NCBI RefSeq assembly: GCF_022410465.1 | Contig: NZ_JAJSON010000020.1 | Span: 62,001 to 126,000, forward strand | DNA: 64,000 nucleotides | Reading direction: 5' to 3' | From: Christiangramia crocea | Lineage (GTDB): Bacteria; Bacteroidota; Bacteroidia; Flavobacteriales; Flavobacteriaceae | Shown here: positions 18,747-32,622 of the stretch, piece by piece | Layout: each line of letters begins with the position of its first letter | How positions within the stretch are numbered: the first letter of the stretch is position 1 | Translations under genes and position numbers: made by a program | The notes under the pieces: model-generated | Databases searched by the model: none | Told to the model about the DNA's origin: nothing | Seen by the model: the letters and a program-made list of their open reading frames with translations, nothing else

Positions 18747-19733
18747 CTATGAAATATAAACTTCCAATAATTTTGATAGGTTTCCATCGATGGTTATCGA
18801 TTTTGAGGTTGCAGGAACCAAAATAGACTCTCCGTATTCAATCAACTCCTCTGCTCCGTCAACATCAATTTTCGCCTTTCCCAAAACGCACATAAAAATC
18901 ACAAAGGAATCCAGTGAAGAATAATCCTTTACTATCTTTCCCTGTACTTCAATAATATTGGTTGTGAAAAATTGACAGTCTACCAGATTGGTTGACTGAT
19001 TTTTTATGAGTTTATAATCAACGGAATGATCATCTATAACATTAAAATTCATTGCCTCACCAGCCAGATCTATATGCAGTTCTCTTGAAACCCCATTTTC
19101 ATCTACCCTATCCCAATCATACACCCTATAAGTTACATCTGAAGTCTGCTGAATTTCCGCTAACATAACACCTTCTCCAATAGCATGAACTTTCCCTGCT
19201 TTAATAAAAAAAGTATCTCCCTCATTAACCGGAATGAAATTGAGATGATCGGTTATAGTCCCATTTTTCAGACTCTCGCTATATTCTTCAGAACTGATTT
19301 TATTTTTCCATCCAACGTTTATCATGGATCCTTTATCAGCTTGCATAATATACCACATTTCCGTTTTTCCATAGGAATTATGGTTTTTCTTTGCCATTTC
19401 ATCCCCGGGGTGTACCTGAACAGATAAATTTTTGGAAGCGTCAATATATTTGATCAATAAAGGAAAATTCCCTCCGAATTTATTAACTACAGATTTACCC
19501 AGAACTTTATCCTGGAATCGCTCAAGCAATTCATCAAACGGCAAACCCTTATAAACTCCATTCTGCACTTCAGAAACATCGCCTTCTACAGTTGAGATCT
19601 CCCAGCTTTCACCGGCACTATCTGTAGCTGATTTCCCTAGGATATTCTTTAATTTGGAACCGCCCCAGATTTTATCTTTTAAAATGGGCTTAAATTTAAT
19701 GCCGTACGCTATAAAGCCTTTATTCGATTTCAT
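18747..19733 (-). CDS. manA: Type I mannose-6-phosphate isomerase
   Basis: About 328 residues from the ATG at 19733, preferred because AAGGAG lies 5 bases upstream; a longer frame reaches 19754. The zinc-binding cupin motifs are visible: SVQVHPGDEMAKKNHN, KTEMWYI and KVHAIGEGVMLAEIQQTSD, followed by YRVYDWDR. The enzyme interconverts mannose-6-phosphate and fructose-6-phosphate in the cytosol. It is the last gene of the SusCD/GH130 locus, 65 bases after the sugar porter gene, so the sugar released by this locus is probably mannose or is converted through mannose-6-phosphate. A kinase for the free sugar is not in the window. Confidence 0.9.
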   Translation of the reverse strand: MKSNKGFIAYGIKFKPILKDKIWGGSKLKNILGKSATDSAGESWEISTVEGDVSEVQNGVYKGLPFDELLERFQDKVLGKSVVNKFGGNFPLLIKYIDASKNLSVQVHPGDEMAKKNHNSYGKTEMWYIMQADKGSMINVGWKNKISSEEYSESLKNGTITDHLNFIPVNEGDTFFIKAGKVHAIGEGVMLAEIQQTSDVTYRVYDWDRVDENGVSRELHIDLAGEAMNFNVIDDHSVDYKLIKNQSTNLVDCQFFTTNIIEVQGKIVKDYSSLDSFVIFMCVLGKAKIDVDGAEELIEYGESILVPATSKSITIDGNLSKLLEVYIS

Positions 19734-19798
19734 TTTACTCCTTTTTATAATCAATTATTTCAGTTACTGGATAAAAAGTATTCCTGGTAGCAGGTATA

Positions 19799-21127
19799 TT
19801 AGCGATCCTTAAAGGATGCTTCTATCTCCTCTAAAGATTTTCCTTTTGTTTCGGGCATCATGAAATGAACAAAAAGCAATTGCAGCCCCATTAGTCCAGC
19901 AAAAATGGAAAATAGCATCCATGGTTGCAGCACATCAAGTAAAACTGATCCGAACAGCGTAACAAGAGCAGCAAAAACCCAATGGGTACCACTTCCCCAT
20001 GCCTGACCATAAGCTCTAACTTTATTCGGGAAAATCTCTGAAATAAACACCCAGATCACAGCGCCCTGACCTATCGCATGGCTTGCAATGAACATGAGGA
20101 TAAATACTAATTTTGATATCGCAGCCGAATCACTCAGAAATAAGTAGCTCACCATGGTCAGGCTAATTATATAACCAATGGAGCCTATATACATAAGATT
20201 CTTTCTTCCTGTGCGGTCAATAAGATAAACCCCTAACAAGGTGAAGACAAGATTAACCAGACCTATAGCAATCGCGCTGAATAGAGAATCTTCCGTACCA
20301 AAACCTGCTTTTTCGAGAATCTCAGGCGCATAATACAGTATGAAGTTGATTCCGGAAAGCTGATTGAAAAATGCAATCAGAAATGCCAGGGTTAATGGAA
20401 AGCTGTATTTCCTGGAAAATAATTGGGTACTGCTGCCTTTACTACGCTCCTGGTCATTCTTCATATCCTTGAGAGTAATATCCGCAGCTTCCACTGAACT
20501 GGTTTTTACCAGAACCTTCAGGGCTTCATCGGCCTTATTCTGATGAAGGTACAACCAACGCGGACTCTTGGGTACGCCCAAAACCAAAATAGTATAAACT
20601 AAAGCGGGAATTGCTTCCACTCCCAGCATCCATCGCCAGTCATTATCCCCACCCACACCTTCAAGCAGGTAATTGCTCAGGTATGCTATCAGGATACCAA
20701 AAACAATATTAAATTGATAAAGAGAGCCCAGGGTACCACGATTCTTTGGATTAGAGATTTCCGAAATATAGGTAGGTGCTGCAATAGAAGAAATTCCCAC
20801 ACCAAGACCTCCAATAAAACGAAAAAAGGAAAAGCTATAAGGATCTTGAGCGAGTCCCGAACCAATTGCCGAAATAAAATAGAGTATTCCTATACCTATG
20901 AGTGTATTTTTTCTTCCAAATTTATCGGTAGGTATTCCCGCTACTAAAGCTCCAATTACGGTGCCCCAAAGTGCCATAGACATAATAAAAGTCCCGTGAA
21001 ACCAACCTGAGGTATTCCAAAGTTCCTTAATTGGAAGATTCGCACCTGAGATAACCACTGTGTCAAAACCAAAAAGAAATCCGGCCATTGCCACAGTAAT
21101 GGAATAATATAATAATCGTTTGTTCAT
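19799..21127 (-). CDS. Sugar porter family MFS transporter (XylE/GLUT-like)
   Basis: A 442-residue protein with about 12 membrane helices. Sugar-porter signatures are present: GFDTVVISGA in helix 1, DKFGRKNTL between helices 2 and 3, RFIGGLGVGISS, PKSPRWLYL after helix 6, QLSGINFILYYAPEI in helix 7 and PETKGKSLEEIE at the C-terminus. Such proteins import a monosaccharide across the inner membrane, usually with protons. Within this locus it likely imports mannose or a related hexose freed in the periplasm and hands it to the phosphomannose isomerase branch. It follows the GH130 gene after a 309-base gap that contains a hairpin. Confidence 0.92.
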   Translation of the reverse strand: MNKRLLYYSITVAMAGFLFGFDTVVISGANLPIKELWNTSGWFHGTFIMSMALWGTVIGALVAGIPTDKFGRKNTLIGIGILYFISAIGSGLAQDPYSFSFFRFIGGLGVGISSIAAPTYISEISNPKNRGTLGSLYQFNIVFGILIAYLSNYLLEGVGGDNDWRWMLGVEAIPALVYTILVLGVPKSPRWLYLHQNKADEALKVLVKTSSVEAADITLKDMKNDQERSKGSSTQLFSRKYSFPLTLAFLIAFFNQLSGINFILYYAPEILEKAGFGTEDSLFSAIAIGLVNLVFTLLGVYLIDRTGRKNLMYIGSIGYIISLTMVSYLFLSDSAAISKLVFILMFIASHAIGQGAVIWVFISEIFPNKVRAYGQAWGSGTHWVFAALVTLFGSVLLDVLQPWMLFSIFAGLMGLQLLFVHFMMPETKGKSLEEIEASFKDR

Positions 21128-21436: not shown

Positions 21437-22567
21437 TTATTCCTTATCCTTAGATTTAACTACTCCCACCATACTATCTGCAGTACCATAATAAAGATAC
21501 CAGGCATCCTTAAAGTACACCAGACCTTCAATAAATGTAGTCCCATCCTTATACTGACCTGATTTCTCAAAATCTAATTCAGGCTTAATGAATGGTTTAT
21601 CGGCACGATCCAGGATCTTCCAGGGTTCATTGGCATCATATAAAGCCTGTCCTCCTGTATAAATTCGATTTCCAAGTTCTTCTACTCCAATATTCTTTGA
21701 GTTTCCGGCATTGTAAAGCACCACGATCCCGTCTTCGGTGAGAACTGGCGGTGGTCCTGCTTCTACTAACCAGGAATCGAAATAACCCGGACGCGGACTG
21801 AGCACCGGAGAGATATTCCCTTCATAATCTTCTATCGGCTCCCAGTTTACAAGATCTGTGGAGCATGCAAGCCAGATATGAGGAACTCCAAAATACATCC
21901 AGTATTTCCCATTTATTTTGGCAGCGATTAACTTACCTTCTTCATTAAGTTTACTTACAATAGCACCGGATTTGGTGTGCATATCATTGTACTTCCCGTC
22001 TTTGTATTCTTCAAAGGCAGGACCATGTTTTTCCCAGTTCTTCAGATCCTTTGAAGTCGCAACGGCCAGCCGGGGAGTATCCCGGTTCCATTGGGTATAG
22101 GTTAGCACATAAGTACCGTCTTCGGTTTCCACGATACGGGGATCTTCAGTTCCTCCGGTCCATTCATATTTTTTCTGATCATCATTATCCGGATAAAAAA
22201 CAGGCTTTTTCTTTCTGTTATATTTAACCCCATCTTCTGACGTAGCAAGTCCCAGCCTGGAGGTATGAGTTCCTATTCCGTCTTCCCCTACTCTTTCTTC
22301 GGCCCTGTAGAAGACATTAATTTTCCCATCCTTAACAACAGCAGCCGGGTTAAAAGTGGCCATTGATTCCCACCTTACTTCCTTACCGCTCATAGGGTCA
22401 TTGAAAGTAGATAAAGTATCCTTAGAGATAATTGGTTTCCCCTGGGTGAACCTCTGGAAGGGACCTAACATCCAGTCTTTTTCTTTGGTTTCCTGTGCCA
22501 GCCCCTGGATTCCACCCATAAAGAGCACGTACAATAAAGTTGCTCCTAAATAGCTTAATTTTTTCAT
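21437..22567 (-). CDS. Secreted glycoside hydrolase family 130 protein (beta-mannoside hydrolase or phosphorylase)
   Basis: About 376 residues from the ATG at 22567, which gives a signal peptide (MKKLSYLGATLLYVLFMGG ending at GLAQ); another ATG exists at 22585. The five-bladed propeller pattern of GH130 is clear: MATFNPAAVVKDGKINVFYR, TGGTEDPRIVETEDGTYVL, KSGAIVSK, KYWMYFGVPHIWLACS and WLVEAGPPPVLTEDGIVVLYN. GH130 enzymes act on beta-mannosides, either by phosphorolysis or, in some secreted Bacteroidetes members, by hydrolysis. Export suggests hydrolysis, since free phosphate is scarce outside the cytosol, but the phosphate-binding residues cannot be checked by eye. The gene is directly downstream of susD and upstream of the sugar porter. 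Confidence 0.88.
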   Translation of the reverse strand: MKKLSYLGATLLYVLFMGGIQGLAQETKEKDWMLGPFQRFTQGKPIISKDTLSTFNDPMSGKEVRWESMATFNPAAVVKDGKINVFYRAEERVGEDGIGTHTSRLGLATSEDGVKYNRKKKPVFYPDNDDQKKYEWTGGTEDPRIVETEDGTYVLTYTQWNRDTPRLAVATSKDLKNWEKHGPAFEEYKDGKYNDMHTKSGAIVSKLNEEGKLIAAKINGKYWMYFGVPHIWLACSTDLVNWEPIEDYEGNISPVLSPRPGYFDSWLVEAGPPPVLTEDGIVVLYNAGNSKNIGVEELGNRIYTGGQALYDANEPWKILDRADKPFIKPELDFEKSGQYKDGTTFIEGLVYFKDAWYLYYGTADSMVGVVKSKDKE

Positions 22568-22623
22568 ATTATTAATATTATTCATTTTCCGGCCACCCGA
22601 GAGTAGCCGGATTTGTTGATTTT

Positions 22624-24111
22624 TTAGTATCCGGGATTCTGTGATATCTGTCCTCCCGATTTATCGATCTCTCCCTGTGGAATTGGGTACAGGTAATTGA
22701 AATCCTGGAAATTCTTTCCTAGTTCGGTAAGTACCTCCTTGGCAATCTGCCATCTTTTAAGGTCCATAAATCTCTGGGATTCAAAACCAAGTTCCACTCT
22801 TCTCTCATGCATAAGTGCTGCCATGGCTTCTGACTGGGACAAGCCCTGTCCGGAATACGGAGGCAGTGCATCAGCCGGAGTCTCACTTCCGTCTACAGAT
22901 TGAGTATTCCTTGCTCTTTCCCTTATTTGATCAACTATGGCAAGGCCTTCTTCCACCTCTCCAAGCTGGATAAGAGCTTCAGCTTTCCAAAGCAATACAT
23001 CTGCATACCTTATATAAACCTTGTTCCCGGGAGAATCGGCATTTCCTTTAAAAGCTCCATCGGTAGAACCTAATAACTTGTGTACTTCCTGAGCCTCCAC
23101 ATCTACGGTATAACCTAATCTCGGGTCGTTCTCTTCAAATGCAGCTATAAAATCTTCAGAAGGTGCTACAAAGCCCCATCCCATTAATGCAGCAAGACCA
23201 TTACCTTTGCTCGGGTTCACTCCCTGCTCATGGTCATAGGCAAAGATCACTTCATTTTCATTGAATTCTTTTGTCACATCAAAAGAATCAAAATAATTAT
23301 CGTTCAGCGAATAAAAGCCCCAGGACTGAAGTTCATCCACATAAGATATTACACTATTCCAGTCTTCATTATACAAAGCTATTTTAGCCTGCATAGACTT
23401 TGCCGCCCCAATAGAAACTCTCCAGGGCTCTGAAGCGCTGGAATATTTTTGCTGTGGAAGCATGGAAACCGCCAGATCAAGATCAGACTTTATAAATTCT
23501 ATAACCTCATCTTTGGGCGTTCTTGTAGTCACCTCATAGGCTTCAGAGAAATTCTCCAATGGTTCAGTCAATAAAGGTACATCTCCAAAATTATTAACCA
23601 GATCGAAATAATAGAAAGCTCTCAGGAAATACGCCTCTCCAAGTAATCTGTCCCTGGTAGCGGCATCCATATCAAGATTAGCTATTACCTCATCCTGTTT
23701 CAGGATATTTATGGCCTGATTAGCCCTTGCAATACCTTCATAATCATAACTCCACTGCCCATTAAAGGCCCCATTCATGGAAGTGAAATTAAAGGCAGCG
23801 ATCTGATCCATCCAGGCCTGGTCACCATCTGGGTTCCATTTCTTATTCATATCTCCAGAAGCTATATCCTGAAGAATAAAATCATTTCTTAAAACGGTAG
23901 CATCATCCCAGTTCCACTCCCCAATGATATTCAGGGTACTGGAAAGAGTTTGATACGTAGAGTTTACACTTGAGGTCACAGAAGATACCGTTGGTTCGGC
24001 ATTGATCTGTTCTTGCGTGATCAATCCTATTGGATCTTTCTCAAGATAGGAGTCACAGCCCGCAATAAATACGGCTGAAGCAATTATTAATATTTTAGGA
24101 ATATGTCTCAT
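22624..24111 (-). CDS. SusD/RagB family glycan-binding outer-membrane lipoprotein
   Basis: About 495 residues. I take the ATG at 24111 rather than the TTG at 24120. The signal peptide ends in the lipobox FIAGC, so the protein is lipid-anchored. The SusD pattern follows: four TPR-like helix pairs (AYFLRAFYYFDLVNNFGDVPL is the usual hallmark), YIRYADVLLWKAEALIQLGE, the late RRVELGFESQRFMDLKRW, and the C-terminal YPIPQGEIDKSG. SusD proteins form the lid over the SusC channel and bind the oligosaccharide outside the cell. It follows susC by 32 bases. Confidence 0.94.
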   Translation of the reverse strand: MRHIPKILIIASAVFIAGCDSYLEKDPIGLITQEQINAEPTVSSVTSSVNSTYQTLSSTLNIIGEWNWDDATVLRNDFILQDIASGDMNKKWNPDGDQAWMDQIAAFNFTSMNGAFNGQWSYDYEGIARANQAINILKQDEVIANLDMDAATRDRLLGEAYFLRAFYYFDLVNNFGDVPLLTEPLENFSEAYEVTTRTPKDEVIEFIKSDLDLAVSMLPQQKYSSASEPWRVSIGAAKSMQAKIALYNEDWNSVISYVDELQSWGFYSLNDNYFDSFDVTKEFNENEVIFAYDHEQGVNPSKGNGLAALMGWGFVAPSEDFIAAFEENDPRLGYTVDVEAQEVHKLLGSTDGAFKGNADSPGNKVYIRYADVLLWKAEALIQLGEVEEGLAIVDQIRERARNTQSVDGSETPADALPPYSGQGLSQSEAMAALMHERRVELGFESQRFMDLKRWQIAKEVLTELGKNFQDFNYLYPIPQGEIDKSGGQISQNPGY

Positions 24112-24143
24112 TGTATTCAATTTTTTGTTACTGATTAAAGCGA

Positions 24144-27100
24144 TTAGAATCTTGCATTTACACCAAACAACAGGGTTAAAGATTGGGGGTAAGTTCCCAT
24201 ATCTATCAGGTCTGTAGACTCAGGGTCAAGACCGGAGTAATCTGTAAATGTTAGCAGATTCTGTCCTGAAACATATAATCTGATATTTCCAAGACCCGAT
24301 AATTTATCAGAATCAAGGCTGTATCCTAACTCCACATTCTTAAGTCGCAGGTAAGAAGCATCTTCTACAAAAATATCAGACACCTTACTACTTCCGTTGT
24401 CACTAAAGCTCACCCTTGGAATGGTGTTGGTAGAGCCTTCTCCATCCCATGCTCCTAACACTCTGTCTGAATAATTAAATGGACGTGTATCATAATCTAT
24501 GATCTTTTTAAGATCATTGTACCTGTCAACATCATCTACACCCTGTAATAAAAGACTGAAATCAAAAGCCTTATAATTCAGGTTAAAGTTCATTCCGTAG
24601 CTTAGCTTGGGATTAGGATTACCTATGAAATCACGGTCATTATCATTAATGATTCCGTTTCCATCAAGATCCTTAAACTTGATATCCCCTGGTTGTTGAG
24701 GCGGGTTGGCGGTTCCAGACAAATGCTCATTTACTTCGGCCTGGTTCTGGTAAATTCCTTCCTGAACAAAACCGTAGTAAGCGTTCAAAGGATTCCCAGG
24801 CTGAGTTCTTGTTACCCTTCCATTCAAATAAGGCAGGTTGGGATGTAGGGACTGTACTTCATTTTTAAGTGTGGCCATATTTGCACTGATCTCGAAGCCA
24901 AGGGGATTATCATAATTCCTGTATGAAAGGGCAAATTCAAATCCACTGTTCTCCACTTCTCCGGCATTCAGATAAGTTGGTGAAACATCTCCAACAAACT
25001 GCGGAAGGGAAATTGGCAATAAAATATCTGCAGTATTCTTTTTGAAATAATCTGCACTACCATATAATCTGTTCTTATACAGTCCAAAATCAATACCAAT
25101 ATTAGCCTGGGTGGTAGTTTCCCATTTAAGATCAGGATTACCATATCTGCTTATTAGATATCTGTCGGCATCCCTTCTGTAAAGGGTAAGATATGCATAG
25201 TTTGGAATTTCCTGGTTACCCAATTGCCCCCAGCTTCCTCTAAGTTTCAATTCTGAAAGCCAATCTGTGTCCTCCATAAATTCTTCTTCAGTGATCATCC
25301 ATCCCGCTGAGACTGATGGGAAATAACCCCATTTATTATCTTCTGCAAAACGGGAAGAAGCATCTGCTCTTAAATTGGCAGTTAGCATATATCTGTCACC
25401 GTACACATACGTAGTTGAAGCGAAATAAGAGAACAGAGCCCATTCTTCAGCGAGTCCTCCATTCCAAAGGTCACGATCTGTTCCACCAAAATCAAGATAT
25501 CTGAAGTTAGGATCGGTGAAATCGAATCTTAACCTTGAAGCACTAAGGTTTGAGGATTCATTAACAATAAATTCTGTACCTAAAAGTGCACTTATGGAAT
25601 GTTCATCAAATTCCTTATCAAAATGAAGACTGTTGTTCCAGGTAATCGTAAAGTCCTGACCTCTTGCTTCGGACAGGGAACTAGGTCGATTTTGTCTACC
25701 CAGTCCCTGGTCTATAGCTGCTCCATTCCCATCATCATCACCAAAATTTCTGTTAAATGCTTTTGAGTGGAAGAAGTTAAGATCAGCACCCAGATTGGTC
25801 TTAAATCTTAGTGATTTATCTTTAAAAATATCATACTCTCCATAGACATTTCCGAAAGTCTTGAAAGTTGAAGTTTCATCATCGGTAAAATAGGCCAAAG
25901 CTATCGGGTTCTGGCTGTATTCATATTTACTGCTTTCATAATTGTCCGGTCCCTGGTAAAATGGAAGATCGGTAAAAGGATCTTCTTCGGTATAAGTTGG
26001 ATCTGAAGGGTCTTTAAATACAGGGATGTTAGGCGGACGTAAAAACGCGTGTCTTATGATTCCCGGCGCATCTCCTTTAGAAGAAATCCTGTCCTGAGTA
26101 TTATAAGATATCTGAACATTGGCACCTACCTTCATACGCTCCAGCACCTGTGAACTGATATTGGTACGGAAATTCAGTTTTCTGAATTTATCGTTATCAT
26201 AAACTACGGTTCCATCCTGGCCAAAGTAACCTCCAGATATCATGTAGTTGGTCTTTTCGTTTCCTCCTGAGACCGAAACATTCAGGCTATGAGTTTTTCC
26301 TAATTCGAATAATTCGTCAAGGTAATCTACATCTCCAAAGTCTGAACGGCCAATGTCTTCGGTATAAGGATTTGTTCCATCATATCCTGCATTATCCCAA
26401 GCCTGTTCTACGGTTTGCATATACTGCTCGGTATTAAGCATATTTGGAAGGTTGATCACCTTTTGGATTCCTCCAAAATAATCAACTTTAAACTGTCCTC
26501 CCTGTTTACCTTCTTTGGTCTTGATAACGATCACCCCGCCGGCGGCACGTGATCCATAGATAGAAGCAGCGGCAGCATCCTTAAGGACAGTCATCGACTG
26601 TATATCTGAAGGATTCAGGAAAGATATTTCACGGCTTGGAATTCCGTCAATAATATAAAGCGGATTGTTATTCCCGATAGTACCATTACCTCGAATTCGT
26701 ACTTCGACCTCATCTCCGGGAGCACCTGTGCTTTGAGTAATATTTACCCCGGCTACCTGCCCCTGCAGTGCCTGTGTTACTTCAGAAACCCTTCTGGATT
26801 CTAATTTGTCGATATCTACAGAAGAAATTGCTCCTGTAATAGTGGACTCTTTCTGGGATTTATAACCTACAACCACAAGCTCATCAAGCTGGGAAATGTC
26901 TTCCTGCAGAGTCACATCTATATTGTTACGCCCCTGTACTTCGGCTTCAAAAGTCTGGTATCCTACATAGGAATATACCAGCACCGCATCACTGCCGGAA
27001 ACTTCAATGGAATATTCCCCGTTAAAATCTGAAACGGTACCGTTCGAGGTTCCTTTTTCAACTACCGAAACGCCTGGTAAAGCACCACTGGAATCAGTAA

Positions 27101-27191
27101 TTACACCTGTAACCGTCTGCGCATAAACTGCGCCTCCCGTACATACAGCCCAAATCATCAACAGGCTGAAAATCGTATTTTTTTTCATCAT
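24144..27191 (-). CDS. SusC/RagA family TonB-dependent glycan importer
   Basis: A 1015-residue outer-membrane receptor. After the signal peptide comes a carboxypeptidase-regulatory-like domain (VTGVITDSSGALPGVSVVEKG, about 28-105) typical of SusC proteins. The plug follows (GYKSQKESTITGAISSVD, then NPLYIIDGIPSR and VLKDAAAASIYGSRAAGGV), then a 22-stranded barrel ending LTLLFGVNARF. It imports oligosaccharides captured by SusD, powered by TonB-ExbBD. The pairing with SusD and the nearby GH130, MFS and isomerase genes define a compact polysaccharide utilisation locus. Confidence 0.95.
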   Translation of the reverse strand: MMKKNTIFSLLMIWAVCTGGAVYAQTVTGVITDSSGALPGVSVVEKGTSNGTVSDFNGEYSIEVSGSDAVLVYSYVGYQTFEAEVQGRNNIDVTLQEDISQLDELVVVGYKSQKESTITGAISSVDIDKLESRRVSEVTQALQGQVAGVNITQSTGAPGDEVEVRIRGNGTIGNNNPLYIIDGIPSREISFLNPSDIQSMTVLKDAAAASIYGSRAAGGVIVIKTKEGKQGGQFKVDYFGGIQKVINLPNMLNTEQYMQTVEQAWDNAGYDGTNPYTEDIGRSDFGDVDYLDELFELGKTHSLNVSVSGGNEKTNYMISGGYFGQDGTVVYDNDKFRKLNFRTNISSQVLERMKVGANVQISYNTQDRISSKGDAPGIIRHAFLRPPNIPVFKDPSDPTYTEEDPFTDLPFYQGPDNYESSKYEYSQNPIALAYFTDDETSTFKTFGNVYGEYDIFKDKSLRFKTNLGADLNFFHSKAFNRNFGDDDGNGAAIDQGLGRQNRPSSLSEARGQDFTITWNNSLHFDKEFDEHSISALLGTEFIVNESSNLSASRLRFDFTDPNFRYLDFGGTDRDLWNGGLAEEWALFSYFASTTYVYGDRYMLTANLRADASSRFAEDNKWGYFPSVSAGWMITEEEFMEDTDWLSELKLRGSWGQLGNQEIPNYAYLTLYRRDADRYLISRYGNPDLKWETTTQANIGIDFGLYKNRLYGSADYFKKNTADILLPISLPQFVGDVSPTYLNAGEVENSGFEFALSYRNYDNPLGFEISANMATLKNEVQSLHPNLPYLNGRVTRTQPGNPLNAYYGFVQEGIYQNQAEVNEHLSGTANPPQQPGDIKFKDLDGNGIINDNDRDFIGNPNPKLSYGMNFNLNYKAFDFSLLLQGVDDVDRYNDLKKIIDYDTRPFNYSDRVLGAWDGEGSTNTIPRVSFSDNGSSKVSDIFVEDASYLRLKNVELGYSLDSDKLSGLGNIRLYVSGQNLLTFTDYSGLDPESTDLIDMGTYPQSLTLLFGVNARF

Positions 27192-27327: not shown

Positions 27328-29796
27328 CTACTGTTTCCTGTAATCGGGATCCATTTCGGGCTCACGAAGTCCGGCAAATTCATTTGCCATCAATACGAAT
27401 ACATTCCAGCTTAACCCTCGTGTGGAATCCCACCATTCTTCATAATTGTTCCATTTAGTTGGGATAAATTCTTTGCTGTAGGGCCAGTATGGATTCAGAT
27501 GAATCTCCGCCCATAAGCGGTTCTTCATTCGTTTTTCTGCCTTTTCCCAGCCGTGTTTAAGACCGGTAACATAAGCGGTATATTCGGCCCTCAACCAGCT
27601 GCCTCCATTATAGTAATAACCATCCCGGGCATGGTTTCCGTAACTGTTCTTTCCAAACTCACCAAATGGCTGGTAGTTTTCATCCATATAGGCATAGCCA
27701 CTGGCATCATTTGTTAGCCTTATACAAATAGGTGCTGTAGTTCCCATTTCAGGATAAGGAGCTTCATCAGTTTTATTCAGTGCCGGGATCTGATCCAAGT
27801 GGTTTTGCACCATCTCATCGGTGAGCATTGGTTCATTAAAGACCCAGAGTGAAAGAAATTCCGGAATCAGGTCGGTAAAACTTATTAGGTCGGGGTAATC
27901 TGTATCGAATAATAGATGCTTTCTCTCAGGATCGTAAAAATTTAAATATTCCTTTTCCGCCTTTGCTACATAATCTTCATCTATCTCTACTCCCAAGGCT
28001 TTAATGGTCTTGAGTGCTACAGCAAACATTCCCTGGTTTGCAGCCATTCGCTGGGTTTTAGGATGGTATTCCATGACATCTATCTGGCTCATTGAAAAAT
28101 GGGAAGCACAAACTGCATCGCGGTCTTCATCAAATTCATTCAGGATATACTCTGCGGCAAGTTTTATCTTTTCCTGTGGCAACTCCATGCCAAACCGCCT
28201 TTTATTGAGCAATCCCCAAATAAGCCATTCTATAGTTGCTTCATTATCCTTGGCTTCTACCGACCCCATATAAGGCGTGATAATAGTACCAATAGCACCA
28301 CGTGGCGTCTGGGTTCTGGCCCATTGATTCCAGATGGAAATATTGAGTTCTTTGTTATAGGTTGAAATAACGGACCAAAATGAATCCCTGTTATACATAT
28401 CCGGCGAATAATTCATATTAGGCACATTAAAAGCGGTGAAATCATCCACGGAAGTAATCCAGGTCATCATCTGGAAATTTGCGTATAGCATCTTTTCAAT
28501 TTCAGACCCCTGAAAACCCATTCCTTCAGCAAGCCTTGTTTTTGTGGAAATTTTAAATTGTTTCTGGTCTTTCCAGGGCTCAGAAAAAATATAAGTAACC
28601 TTTTCTATGGGTTCACCTAAAGTCAGCCTATTATAAGGTCTTTCAAATGGGTGGTTTTCCTCTATTCTCAGATCTTTCAACTTTAAAGAACCATTTTCCG
28701 GATTATTGACACCTATGAACATCATAATGCTGTCCTTATCGATATAGGGTACCAAAACGCTTCCTTTAAACCGGGTCCATTCTTTGGTATTTACCGGAAA
28801 ATTATCAATATACTTGATGCCGTGTTCCAGTTCTTTTGTCCTTTCCCCATTTTTTACCCTGTATAATTTCAGGGAAACAGGAGCATTAGCTTTAGCGAGG
28901 AATGAAACAGTATACACCTTCTGGTCCCTCATAGGCGTTATTAGTTCCATTCCCGCTTTGCTATTGTCTTTAAAATTCAGTTCTGTTATACTGTCTTTTC
29001 TCTCAATCTCAAGATTACCTACTTTCCTGAAGTCTTCAGGAAGGTCAAGCTCTTTAACCGTTCCCCTGTCAAGAACATCCATTTCCCCGAAAGTGTACTG
29101 TATATAGTCATTTCCGGAGTTTTGTTCTTCCTGAGTGGCAACGGAAAGAAGACGTACATCAGGGAGAACCCTCATCCCAATCATTCCTCCTCCACGTCCA
29201 CTAAAGCGTCTACGGGTGGTTCTGGTAAAATGATTCTTATAGCCCGGATCTGTTAAAAACCCAACTACATTTCCCTGAGGGGTTATAAAACCTGCTGAAG
29301 GATATAATTCGTGAACAAGGCCGCCGGGGAAATTCCCATGCTCAAAAGTTATGTAACGTTCCGGCCGCTTTGCGGGAATATTCTTAACGCCAAGACTATA
29401 GTAAAGAGTGGGAATGGAAGGCTGAAATAGCCGTATTGTCTTTTTTATAAGATTCGGACTTATCCGGTCATATTCTACCTCGACTGATAAGTTTGAATCA
29501 AATCTATCCAGATAAATATCTTTTTGAAGACTGATTCCGGTTTCTGACTTATTAAAAGATGAAGCTCTAAAATTCTTTATTTCATGCTGGACACTTAAGT
29601 CAAGGTTGGAAAGCTTCAGAGAGAATTCTCCGTCAGCAACAACTAATAGCTCCTCTCCGTCAAGTACATTTACAGAATACCCTGACTGCTCATTCCCGGA
29701 AACTTCCAGATTTAGATCCTGAGCCAATCCTGAATACGATCCTCCCAAAATTATAACTCCGATAAATAACAAATAAAAGGTTCGGTAAACAGTCAT
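27328..29796 (-). CDS. Large secreted protein, putative six-hairpin glycosidase with CBM-like module; family not recognised
   Basis: An 822-residue protein with an N-terminal signal peptide (ending near SGLAQ). By eye there are three parts: a beta-rich N-terminal domain (about 25-250); a jelly-roll segment like a CBM4/9 module (about 270-375; VYTVSFLAKANAPVSLKLY, EWTRFKGSVLVPY, SLKLKDLRIEE); and a C-terminal helical part (about 420-800) with repeated aromatic and acidic motifs (YNRDSFWSVIS, ASHFSMSQIDVMEY, GSWLRAEYTAYVTG). That layout is the style of (alpha/alpha)6 glycosidases. I do not recognise a GH number. It is the first gene after the LacI operator and 136 bases before susC, so a catalytic role on the locus substrate is the simplest reading. 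No residue can be assigned as catalytic with confidence. Confidence 0.6.
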   Translation of the reverse strand: MTVYRTFYLLFIGVIILGGSYSGLAQDLNLEVSGNEQSGYSVNVLDGEELLVVADGEFSLKLSNLDLSVQHEIKNFRASSFNKSETGISLQKDIYLDRFDSNLSVEVEYDRISPNLIKKTIRLFQPSIPTLYYSLGVKNIPAKRPERYITFEHGNFPGGLVHELYPSAGFITPQGNVVGFLTDPGYKNHFTRTTRRRFSGRGGGMIGMRVLPDVRLLSVATQEEQNSGNDYIQYTFGEMDVLDRGTVKELDLPEDFRKVGNLEIERKDSITELNFKDNSKAGMELITPMRDQKVYTVSFLAKANAPVSLKLYRVKNGERTKELEHGIKYIDNFPVNTKEWTRFKGSVLVPYIDKDSIMMFIGVNNPENGSLKLKDLRIEENHPFERPYNRLTLGEPIEKVTYIFSEPWKDQKQFKISTKTRLAEGMGFQGSEIEKMLYANFQMMTWITSVDDFTAFNVPNMNYSPDMYNRDSFWSVISTYNKELNISIWNQWARTQTPRGAIGTIITPYMGSVEAKDNEATIEWLIWGLLNKRRFGMELPQEKIKLAAEYILNEFDEDRDAVCASHFSMSQIDVMEYHPKTQRMAANQGMFAVALKTIKALGVEIDEDYVAKAEKEYLNFYDPERKHLLFDTDYPDLISFTDLIPEFLSLWVFNEPMLTDEMVQNHLDQIPALNKTDEAPYPEMGTTAPICIRLTNDASGYAYMDENYQPFGEFGKNSYGNHARDGYYYNGGSWLRAEYTAYVTGLKHGWEKAEKRMKNRLWAEIHLNPYWPYSKEFIPTKWNNYEEWWDSTRGLSWNVFVLMANEFAGLREPEMDPDYRKQ

Positions 29797-29854: not shown

Positions 29855-29894
29855 GTAAATCGTTTTACTAAATCGATTTAGTAAAACGATTTAC
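29855..29894. promoter_or_regulatory. 40-bp perfect palindrome of three CG-centred LacI-type operator sites
   Basis: The two 20-base halves (29855-29874 and 29875-29894) are exact reverse complements. Within it lie three adjacent near-palindromes, each with a central CG as in LacI/PurR-family operators: GTAAATCGTTTTAC (29855-29868), TAAATCGATTTA (29869-29880) and GTAAAACGATTTAC (29881-29894), with centres 13 bases apart. It lies 58 bases upstream of the 822-residue gene and 93 bases downstream of the LacI-family gene on the same strand. It is very likely the operator controlling the glycan operon; the binding protein is inferred from adjacency. Confidence 0.82.
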
Positions 29895-29987: not shown

Positions 29988-31034
29988 TTAAATTGAATTA
30001 TTCTCAGAAACACGACTAGAGGAAATTCTTTCTATCAATTGTCCCTTCAAAACTTTCCGAAATTTAGAAGATTCTTTAAAATCGCTTTCCAGCAAATTTA
30101 AGGTTCCCTTAATAAGTTCATTGGCCAATTGACTAACCGGTTGTGATATAACACTAATAGGTGGCGAATACAGCTCAAAAAGATCGCGGTCGTCAAAAGT
30201 AAGTACCGAGACATCCTCCGGGATTTTAAGAGACATTTCCTTTAGGGTCTTAAGCCCGCTTATAGCAAGGCTGTTAGTAGCAAATAACAAGGAGTCTATT
30301 TGTGGATTCCTTTTAATAAAATCATAAATCTTCTTTCTGCCTGTCAGGGTTTTTACTTCATCGAATGGAATAAGTACAGAGCGGTCTTTCTGGCCATTTT
30401 CTGCCATCACCTGCTGATAACCCTGAAGTCTTTCAAGAGTTGGGGAAATATCAGATTTAAGTCCTACAAATCCAACATTCTGAAATCCGTTATCCAGAAG
30501 ATATCTTGTGGCCCGCGTTGAACTTGCCAGATTGTCCAAAACCACATAATTATGCTCAAAATCGTCATAATACCTGTCAAATACCATAACCGCCTGTTTA
30601 TTCTCTCTGATAAGTTTTTCCATTTCATCTTTGAATCCCTCCGGCGGAGTAATAATAAAGGCATCTACCTGTCTATCCTTAAAAAGATCAAGTAACTCCA
30701 GTGCCCTTTCTTTTTTATTTTCGGTACTACAGTAGATGATCTTATACCCATTTTCAAAAGCAATTTCTTCCATCTCCTTGGCTATAGCTGAAAAAAACGG
30801 GTCAGAAATATCCTCGGCCATGAAAACTATAGTCTTGGATTTACCGGTTCTAAGAGTTTGAGCAGTAGTATTTGGTTTATAACCCACCTTTTCGATATAA
30901 TCCTCAACCTTCTCGATAACTTCCTTACTTATCCTGTTTTTCGCTTTATTATTAATAATAAATGAGATAGTTGTAGTAGAGATCCCCAGCTCCTTAGAAA
31001 TATCTTTAATAGATATTTTTCGCTTTTTTTTCAT
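29988..31034 (-). CDS. LacI family transcriptional regulator
   Basis: A 348-residue regulator. The helix-turn-helix (residues about 6-30; SIKDISKELGISTTTISFIINN) and hinge helix (YIEKVGYKPNTTAQTLRTGKS) are typical, followed by a periplasmic-binding-protein-like effector domain (TIVFMAEDISDPFFSAIAKEMEE, SVLTFDDRDLFELYSPPISVISQP). It would bind a sugar or sugar-phosphate signal. It lies directly upstream of the glycan operon, with the palindromic operator in between. Regulation by LacI rather than a SusR or hybrid two-component sensor suggests response to a cytosolic sugar. Confidence 0.93.
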   Translation of the reverse strand: MKKKRKISIKDISKELGISTTTISFIINNKAKNRISKEVIEKVEDYIEKVGYKPNTTAQTLRTGKSKTIVFMAEDISDPFFSAIAKEMEEIAFENGYKIIYCSTENKKERALELLDLFKDRQVDAFIITPPEGFKDEMEKLIRENKQAVMVFDRYYDDFEHNYVVLDNLASSTRATRYLLDNGFQNVGFVGLKSDISPTLERLQGYQQVMAENGQKDRSVLIPFDEVKTLTGRKKIYDFIKRNPQIDSLLFATNSLAISGLKTLKEMSLKIPEDVSVLTFDDRDLFELYSPPISVISQPVSQLANELIKGTLNLLESDFKESSKFRKVLKGQLIERISSSRVSENNSI

Positions 31035-31905: not shown

Positions 31906-32622
31906 CTAGCCTTGCATTTTTTCTTTTCCTTTGCGTTTGGTAAGTATAATCCCATTGCTACGGGTACCAATTATAAAGGTAGAGTCATTCAATCTCGCGA
32001 GATCGGTCACACTATAGTCTTTATTAAGGCCGGTGAGTTTTACCATTTCTCCGGTTTGGGTATCTATTTTGTAAAGCCCCGAATCTGTTCCGGCAAGAAT
32101 ACTATTGGCTATATAATGAACAGTTTGAACATTGGGAAGATTCTGAACCCTTTCCACCTTTGTGTTGTCGCCATTATGGGTTAATTTCCAAAGACCGTTA
32201 AAACAACCTACCCAAAGATTTCCATCTTCATCTTCAGCAAAGAATTTGACTAAGGAAGGGCGTAAATTACCCGATAATTCAATTTTCTTGAAATTATTTT
32301 CACCTTCATCAAAGTAAGCGATCCCATTTTCACCACCTATCCAGATTTTATTACCGGAGTCAATAAAAATAGTCCGGATGCGTGTTCCAAATTCATCTGG
32401 CAATCCGTCATATTTATTATATGTTTCAGAATTTTTAGAATTATATCTTATAACTCCCTCTTCAGTAGCCATCCATATATTGCCGATGGAATCCTGAGAG
32501 ATAGCATAGACAATACTCTGATTAACCCCTTCCTCATATGACAGTTTCTGAAATTGGAGTTGTTGTTGAGCAATTATAAATGAGCTCCAAAAAAATAATA
32601 ATATCAGAAGTAATTTCTTCAA
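31906..32622 (-). CDS. Short secreted beta-propeller sensor-domain protein, probably truncated
   Basis: A 238-residue protein starting with TTG at 32622; the next codons encode a clear signal peptide (KKLLLILLFFWSSFIIAQ), no in-frame ATG exists before the upstream stop, and the first internal ATG is within the repeats. Repeats of the two-component regulator propeller type follow: AISQDSIGNIWMATEEGVIRYN, IFIDSGNKIWIGGENGIAYFD, FAEDEDGNLWVGCFNGLWKL, NSILAGTDSGLYKID and DSTFIIGTRSNGIILTK. Full members have about 14 repeats, a Y_Y_Y domain and a histidine kinase or DNA-binding part; here only about five or six repeats exist and translation ends in a basic tail. No continuation is visible in 31794-31905. 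It may be a remnant or a stand-alone propeller. Confidence 0.6.
   Translation of the reverse strand: MKKLLLILLFFWSSFIIAQQQLQFQKLSYEEGVNQSIVYAISQDSIGNIWMATEEGVIRYNSKNSETYNKYDGLPDEFGTRIRTIFIDSGNKIWIGGENGIAYFDEGENNFKKIELSGNLRPSLVKFFAEDEDGNLWVGCFNGLWKLTHNGDNTKVERVQNLPNVQTVHYIANSILAGTDSGLYKIDTQTGEMVKLTGLNKDYSVTDLARLNDSTFIIGTRSNGIILTKRKGKEKMQG

Follow-up and report, generated by a model that had tools for sequence, protein, structure and literature searches.

A possible beta-1,2-mannan-cutting glycoside hydrolase, of a family outside Pfam and NCBIfam, heads a GH130 locus in Christiangramia crocea

Glycoside hydrolase (GH) family 130 includes enzymes acting on beta-1,2-mannosides, and for some of these the source of the oligosaccharides is unclear: for the Thermoanaerobacter phosphorylases, the authors of PMC4264767 state that the genus had yielded no potential source. 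The same passage places the linkage in polysaccharides of Candida, Leishmania and other trypanosomatids and in bacterial O-antigens (PMC4264767). What might cut such glycans down for GH130 is the question raised by a locus in the window, the 64,000-nucleotide stretch of Christiangramia crocea analysed here (contig NZ_JAJSON010000020.1, positions 62,001 to 126,000). A preliminary description had picked out one gene of this locus, called X here, as coding for a secreted protein, and had suggested an enzyme class, perhaps new or little described, that acts on a mannose-containing glycan. Our analysis supports this suggestion, in that X matches no GH-family hidden Markov model (HMM) of Pfam or NCBIfam and its predicted fold is glycosidase-like. 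It also sharpens it, with beta-1,2 as the most likely linkage, with the recurrence of X alongside SusC and SusD, and with a sister family of ∼610-residue proteins.

The reading that we favour is that X is an exported (alpha/alpha)6 glycoside hydrolase, of a family outside Pfam and NCBIfam, which supplies GH130 with short beta-1,2-mannosides by cleaving beta-1,2-linked mannan or manno-oligosaccharide. About 0.45 is the probability that we give both to this reading and to cleavage of a beta-1,2-mannosidic chain by X; we consider it considerably more probable that X is some kind of glycoside hydrolase. In the titles and abstract openings searched there was no report of an enzyme cutting inside beta-1,2-mannan, which is no proof of absence. 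We propose more tentatively that X founds a new GH family dedicated to depolymerising beta-1,2-mannan, by endo-cleavage or by release of mannobiose, and that it would be the missing first enzyme upstream of the GH130 beta-1,2-mannosidases and phosphorylases; the ∼610-residue relatives would be a second branch with other substrates, and a ∼580-residue protein encoded in some of the loci one more enzyme of this pathway, likewise unclassified. If this is true, a dedicated depolymerase would make beta-1,2-mannan accessible to analysis with enzymes and would serve as a marker of its turnover, and a scattered, uncatalogued family would be placed on the map of six-hairpin enzymes.

Gene X and the search for its family

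The gene and the parts of its product are as follows.

27328..29796, minus strand: X, 822-residue protein with a signal peptide, no family assigned in the libraries searched (open reading frame, library scans, orthologue alignment)
29722..29796, minus strand: N-terminal signal peptide, about residues 1-25, without a lipobox cysteine (by eye; N-termini alike in the 12 orthologues aligned)
29047..29721, minus strand: beta-rich N-terminal region, about residues 26-250, including a conserved TRRRF...GGG..GMR stretch (model and alignment; residues 140-245 of low confidence)
28642..29046, minus strand: CBM4/9-like jelly roll, about residues 251-385 (sub-threshold Pfam match and Foldseek matches of a weak model)
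27331..28584, minus strand: putative catalytic (alpha/alpha)6 domain, residues 405-822 (model 2 and Foldseek)
28378..28398, minus strand: MYNRDSF motif, residues 467-473, with Asp471 invariant in the 12 X proteins and both distant relatives (alignments)
27583..27606, minus strand: GGSWLRAE motif, residues 731-738, with position 738 acidic in 14 of 14 proteins (alignments)

Compared with its orthologue in Gramella sp. KN1008 (L005), X differs at 98 first, 45 second and 307 third codon positions over 822 gap-free codons, which is the selection-like pattern of a conserved protein, and 11 orthologues besides that of the window align along X with 56-85% identity. X is therefore no chance open reading frame, and the frame that had been described as coding for an 822-residue secreted protein is a real gene. 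The orthologues are scattered over the Bacteroidota. Four came from a contig scan (Gramella sp. KN1008 and three Salegentibacter) and the others from whole-genome searches (G031, G061, G111, G495, G712, G1187, G1217 and G1238); the S. sediminis orthologue is counted once, its contig-scan match being the whole-genome match G031.

The genome samples overlap, and counts of X matches include its own genome where that was sampled. Matches were found in 4 of 199 genomes of the family and 1 of 196 of the order, in 2 of 24 of the genus (one being a remnant), and in 2 of 296 and 3 of 395 in two samples of the phylum. For G712, the class gave 1 of 245 and the family 4 of 79 at E ≤ 1, three of these at E 0.03-0.4; for G495, the class gave 2 of 247 at E ≤ 10, one of these at E 0.2, and the family 6 of 151, two of which (G1246 and G1185) are the ∼610-residue proteins. 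The weak matches L022, L023, L024 and L025 (E 0.03 to 0.4) were treated as noise, and the frame in L022 looks like a TonB-dependent receptor.

The proteins of G1246 and G1185 match only positions 570-676 of the X profile (E 4e-8 and 2e-5). The reverse search, with one ∼610-residue protein against 91 genomes, returned that protein, the other one and four X orthologues (E 9e-6 to 5e-4), and hhalign of X against the ∼610-residue family gave 97% and E 5e-11 over 264 columns, covering X residues 449-757. By these comparisons the family (L029/L032 and L030/L033) is a distant relative of X. It keeps the RD-[SA]-FW, NQG and GGS[WY] motifs, but is shorter, too short to hold the CBM-like region, and is only about 20% identical to X in the C-terminal domain; the N-terminal parts are not reliably alignable to X. 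Neither protein has a Pfam match. One of their loci also holds GH29, an MGH1-like GH, altronate dehydratase and GH3, the other GH20, an amidohydrolase, a melibiase-like GH and GH3.

We call X unassigned in the sense that it has no assignment in Pfam, NCBIfam, PHROGs or PDB sequences. Pfam gave no catalytic-domain match, the sole match being a sub-threshold one to CBM_4_9 at residues 286-356 (E 7e-4; 20.5 bits, cutoff 25.9). Among seven X-family proteins scanned, window included, CBM_4_9 appeared at E ≤ 1 in five and no other Pfam family at this level in any, those of GH116, GH63, MGH1-like enzymes and GH37 included. A kinship with GH63 and MGH1-like enzymes was also tried with hhalign against one MGH1-like protein (L033:5458-7362), and the probability of 3% lends it no support. 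The best NCBIfam model reached 11.9 bits against a cutoff of 311, and PHROGs gave no match. PDB sequences were searched with X by itself and with profiles built from 7, 12 and 14 sequences, and no catalytic-domain relative was found; the profiles linked only the CBM region, weakly, to a module of hyaluronate lyase (E 0.35 and 0.06), apart from a single irrelevant match (E 0.7). Neither plasmid searches, made with X and with a ∼610-residue relative, nor two scans of viral contigs found anything. Thus, the earlier statement that X could not be placed in a known GH family holds for the four libraries, and the strong HMM match to a characterised GH family that had been named beforehand as refuting evidence was found in neither Pfam nor NCBIfam. 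Judged by these scans, X belongs to a family that neither Pfam nor NCBIfam covers.

The predicted fold of X

Two structural models were used. Model 1, of the whole protein and built from 7 sequences, was poor (predicted local distance difference test score, pLDDT, 51.1; predicted template-modelling score, pTM, 0.41), so that fold matches obtained with it are leads only. It nevertheless places strands between residues 28 and 137, in line with the beta-rich N-terminal domain that had been proposed, and its Foldseek matches include CBM22, CBM4, CBM16 and CBM29 structures; with these and the sub-threshold Pfam match, the proposed CBM4/9-like jelly roll is a candidate domain. Model 2, of residues 405-822 and built from 14 sequences, was better (pLDDT 71.6, pTM 0.80), and turns the helical C-terminal region of the preliminary description into a predicted domain of (alpha/alpha)6 type.

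Foldseek with model 2 gave 19 PDB matches at E ≤ 0.001: 16 titled GH116, two chains of 5fjs, a bacterial beta-glucosidase that we take to be TxGH116, and one exo-beta-D-arabinanase. The best GH116 match had E 4e-5 and a query TM-score of 0.54, and GH116 also came top for the weak full-length model. The weaker tail for model 2 held alkaline/neutral invertase, entries titled 'glycosidase', GH52 xylosidases and 2-epimerases. A fold without a glycosidase-like active-site cleft had likewise been named as refuting evidence, and structure prediction with fold search gave a toroid that looks glycosidase-like. These matches support an (alpha/alpha)6 glycosidase-type toroid for the C-terminal domain, and not membership of GH116. 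The GH116 beta-glucosidases (TxGH116 and TeGH116) are the best structural match for this domain, whereas X matches GH116 neither at Pfam level nor among PDB sequences, combines a CBM4/9-like domain with an export signal, and lies in a mannoside rather than a glucoside context. GH116 architecture is a toroid following an N-terminal beta-sandwich; in X the toroid has a pTM of 0.80, and the N-terminal part is seen in the low-confidence model only.

In TxGH116 the nucleophile is a glutamate (E441) and the acid/base an aspartate (D593), residue names being those of PDB titles. In the X family Asp471, Glu519, Asp573 and Asp636 are invariant in all 14 proteins (12 X and the two ∼610-residue relatives), and positions 646, 738 and 764 are acidic in all 14, position 764 lying outside the profile alignment. 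We infer Asp471, Glu519, Asp573 and Glu738 as candidate catalytic residues. Signal peptide and lipobox were judged by eye, and because no lipobox was seen, X is probably located in the periplasm.

The locus and its probable linkage

The gene order on the minus strand is lacI, X, susC, susD, GH130, sugar porter and phosphomannose isomerase, with a palindrome directly upstream of X.

29988..31034, minus strand: LacI-family regulator (library scan)
29855..29894, no strand: LacI-type operator-like palindrome, two 14-bp sites around TAAATCGATTTA, between lacI and X (sequence)
24144..27191, minus strand: SusC-type TonB-dependent receptor (library scan and locus comparison)
22624..24120, minus strand: SusD family protein (library scan and locus comparison)
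21437..22585, minus strand: GH130, BT3780-like beta-1,2-mannosidase, signal peptide by eye (Pfam and NCBIfam scans, alignment)
19799..21127, minus strand: sugar porter of the major facilitator superfamily (MFS), SP family (library scans)
18747..19754, minus strand: phosphomannose isomerase, type I (library scan)

Library scans thus confirmed every neighbour that had been named (GH130, SusC, SusD, phosphomannose isomerase and LacI), and the sugar porter is present too. From lacI to the isomerase there are no glycan-cleaving candidates other than X and GH130, and besides the isomerase no further enzymes were seen; among the locus genes scanned no alpha-mannanase or alpha-mannosidase family was matched, and no GH26 or GH5. 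With a SusC/SusD pair, a carbohydrate-active enzyme and a regulator, conserved together, the locus qualifies as a polysaccharide utilization locus (PUL).

The palindrome is unique in the genome. When as many as 2 mismatches are allowed, the window contains GTAAAACGTTTTAC at two positions, each in the lacI-X palindrome, compared with a mean of 0.31 in shuffled windows, of which 3 of 100 had at least two occurrences. GTAAAACGWTTTAC is found in the 3.9-Mb genome solely at this palindrome, once per strand, and similar sites lie in all six of the other lacI-X intervals inspected. Its position agrees with the description of X as the first structural gene after a LacI operator, and we infer that the LacI repressor acts at this putative operator. 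The lacI-X interval of Gramella sp. KN1008 contains a perfect 50-bp palindrome (L005:9893-9942). Upstream of lacI in the window, 31906-32622 encodes a 238-residue protein whose above-cutoff Pfam matches are two-component-regulator propeller repeats only, with no kinase domain; it is possibly a shortened sensor.

The linkage is suggested by the GH130. Against the NCBIfam model of the BT3780 beta-1,2-mannosidase (NF058598) it scores 493 bits, below the equivalog cutoff of 550, and against two phosphorylase models 181 and 96 bits, far less. Its solved relatives are headed by BT3780 (5a7v; 341 residues aligned) and BACOVA_03624 (3qc2). In BT3780 numbering, fitted with an offset of +4, Asp142, Lys199 and Glu268 are kept and Glu227 is replaced by Val. 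The BT3780 paper proposes Lys199 as giving beta-1,2 specificity and allows either glutamate (Glu227 or Glu268) to be the base; GH130 of this type is exo-acting. The GVPH motif, with the Val at the place of Glu227, also occurs in L005, L006, L008 and L031, so that these enzymes may form a one-glutamate GH130 subgroup.

The G111 locus (L015) has a GH130 of another kind, lacking a signal peptide and scoring best with Uhgb_MS (533 bits), followed by Lin0857 (306) and a 1,2-beta-oligomannan phosphorylase (182); a review table lists Uhgb_MS and Lin0857 as forming beta-1,2-mannobiose. For the GH130s of G061 and G111 the top NCBIfam model is one and the same, and those of L034, L035 and L036 were compared by alignment only. 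Taken together, the locus looks specific for beta-1,2-mannosides.

Known loci differ from this one. The Bacteroides GH130s BT3780 and BACOVA_03624 are of the same type as that of the window and also lie in SusCD loci; Bacteroides loci were covered for X only through the phylum samples. The BT3780 PUL is described as one for yeast mannan, some forms of which are beta-1,2-mannose-capped, whereas the window locus genes scanned match no alpha-mannan enzyme. Marine beta-mannan PULs of two studies combine GH26 mannanases with a GH130 (PMC6298971, PMC9860051). One of them, in Muricauda sp. MAR_2010_75, is comparable in its SusCD and GH130, with disaccharide import and phosphorolysis, but has GH26 mannanases and a beta-1,4 GH130 (PMC9860051), in contrast to the beta-1,2-type GH130 and lack of GH26 or GH5 matches in the window. 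Literature searches turned up no described PUL of the window's composition.

Two locus types and the explanations weighed

Of the 12 loci compared, 10 contain SusC and SusD along with X; SusC adjoins X in nine of these. Across both locus types, identity to the window proteins is 57-85% for X, 53-94% for SusC and 54-93% for SusD. GH130 lies within the examined stretch in 10 of the 12, the others being L007, where the contig ends, and G495. Type-I phosphomannose isomerase was confirmed in the window, L005, L008, L014 and L031, and the regulator of L034 is a hybrid two-component system.

The tree of the 12 X proteins splits 5 against 7, with 100/100 support, and the split follows GH130 type. The window clade consists of the window, KN1008 and three Salegentibacter, and its GH130 is BT3780-like in four of five, those whose contig reaches GH130 (typed by NCBIfam in two and by alignment in the others). 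In the sister clade, five GH130s are without a signal peptide (G061, G111, G1187, G1217 and G1238), that of G712 is more divergent, and in G495 none was seen. The MFS transporters of the window and G111 types gave no blastp match to each other at 1e-3.

A pathway can be proposed for each type. SusC and SusD would carry the glycan across the outer membrane, and X, aided by its CBM4/9-like domain, would cleave it, most likely in the periplasm. In the window clade the exported GH130 beta-1,2-mannosidase would then release mannose for the sugar porter and phosphomannose isomerase, and the window locus would be under the control of the LacI repressor at the palindrome directly upstream of X. In the sister clade MFS would import short mannosides for phosphorolysis by the GH130 lacking a signal peptide, and a second unclassified protein, of ∼580 residues, would take some part.

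The copies of this second protein, each following MFS, are:

L014:11548-13290
L015:18113-19852
L045:431-2179
L046:459-2198
L047:6676-8415

They share 55-93% mutual identity, and Pfam assigns none of them above cutoff; for the L014 copy, NCBIfam and PDB gave nothing either. A kinship of the co-located unclassified proteins with X, that of ∼580 residues included, was rejected by profile comparison, hhalign giving 0.1% (P0002/P0003) and 0.3% (P0004/P0005). By tblastn over all loci and the window, the ∼580-residue protein is in no window-type locus, which says little for L007 and L008, as these end soon after.

The same genus offers a case of loss. G406 retains lacI, SusC, SusD, GH130, porter and isomerase, but X is a remnant, a 131-codon frame (L031:15967-16362) matching X residues ∼26-46 and 239-321 between intact-looking lacI and SusC, and a genome search shows no other X match there. 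This fits a strain living on oligosaccharides that an exo-mannosidase can manage.

Several observations weigh against the proposed role of X. The G406 remnant shows X to be dispensable, and the exo-mannosidase may handle imported oligomers alone. The lack of a visible lipobox does not suit a surface endo-enzyme. In G495 there is no SusCD or GH130 in the 19.9-kb stretch examined around X (a 921-residue outer-membrane protein there is of another Pfam family than SusC), in G712 a 3.2-kb run of N lies beside X, between it and GH130, and SusC is not visible, and in G061 X is several genes away from SusC. The review lists Uhgb_MS as making alpha-1,2 products too. In the structural comparison, only two enzymes underlie all the GH116 matches, whose query TM-scores are no higher than 0.48-0.54 and whose root-mean-square deviations are 6-10 Å, and no active site is visible in model 2 because several loops that could hold catalytic residues have pLDDT <50 (445-469, 506-510, 570-578 with Asp573, 708-715, 717-733 and 769-796). 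Finally, the idea that X and GH130 are the only enzymes of the smallest loci, L034 among them, had to be rejected: each of the five phosphorylase-type loci that have the whole X-SusCD-GH130-MFS set encodes the ∼580-residue protein after MFS, GH13 is also present in G061 and G111, and L034 has a GH3 before its regulator. X is thus not the only candidate in sister-clade loci, where it shares this place with the ∼580-residue protein, and the argument for X as chain cutter rests on the window-type loci: in that of the window, from lacI to the isomerase, only X and the exo-acting type of GH130 are candidate glycosidases.

These other enzymes bear on a second explanation, in which X, with this fold, would remove an alpha-linked mannose or glucose branch, or cut an alpha-linkage joining beta-1,2-mannose caps to alpha-mannan, and the ∼580-residue protein of the sister clade may be the chain cutter. 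The constant presence of that protein and the GH13 genes speak for it, as do the capped forms of yeast mannan linked with the BT3780 PUL and the many linkages spanned by the fold relatives of X. The window locus, however, lacks the ∼580-residue protein, and the genes scanned there match no alpha-mannanase or alpha-mannosidase family; we consider this explanation conceivable but rather doubtful.

It is improbable that X is a toroid other than a hydrolase, whether an enzyme of another class (carbohydrate epimerase, lyase or phosphorylase) or a protein that binds glycan but has no catalytic activity. Cellobiose 2-epimerases and glucose-2-epimerases do occur among the weaker fold matches, with query TM-scores (0.30-0.46) that at best come near those of GH116, and glucuronyl C5-epimerases among the matches of the weak full-length model. 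The 2-epimerase E-values (0.02-0.15) are, however, far weaker than those of GH116, cytosolic epimerases are unlike a protein with an export signal, an N-terminal beta-region and a CBM-like domain, and a periplasmic phosphorylase would have no phosphate available. That X has diverged within an existing CAZy family, GH116 or another, beyond the reach of the profiles used, would explain why GH116 dominates the structural matches of model 2 and tops those of the full-length model, but is more improbable still, given the lack of any GH116 Pfam family at E ≤ 1 in the seven proteins scanned and of catalytic-domain PDB sequence matches for all three profiles.

Apart from these candidates, a family of ∼440-residue proteins is encoded near GH130 in two loci (L014:15686-17014 and L019:18105-19457). 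Neither copy has a Pfam match, and for that of L014 a match exists among solved structures, the 'putative exported protein YPO2471' (7tem, E 1e-81).

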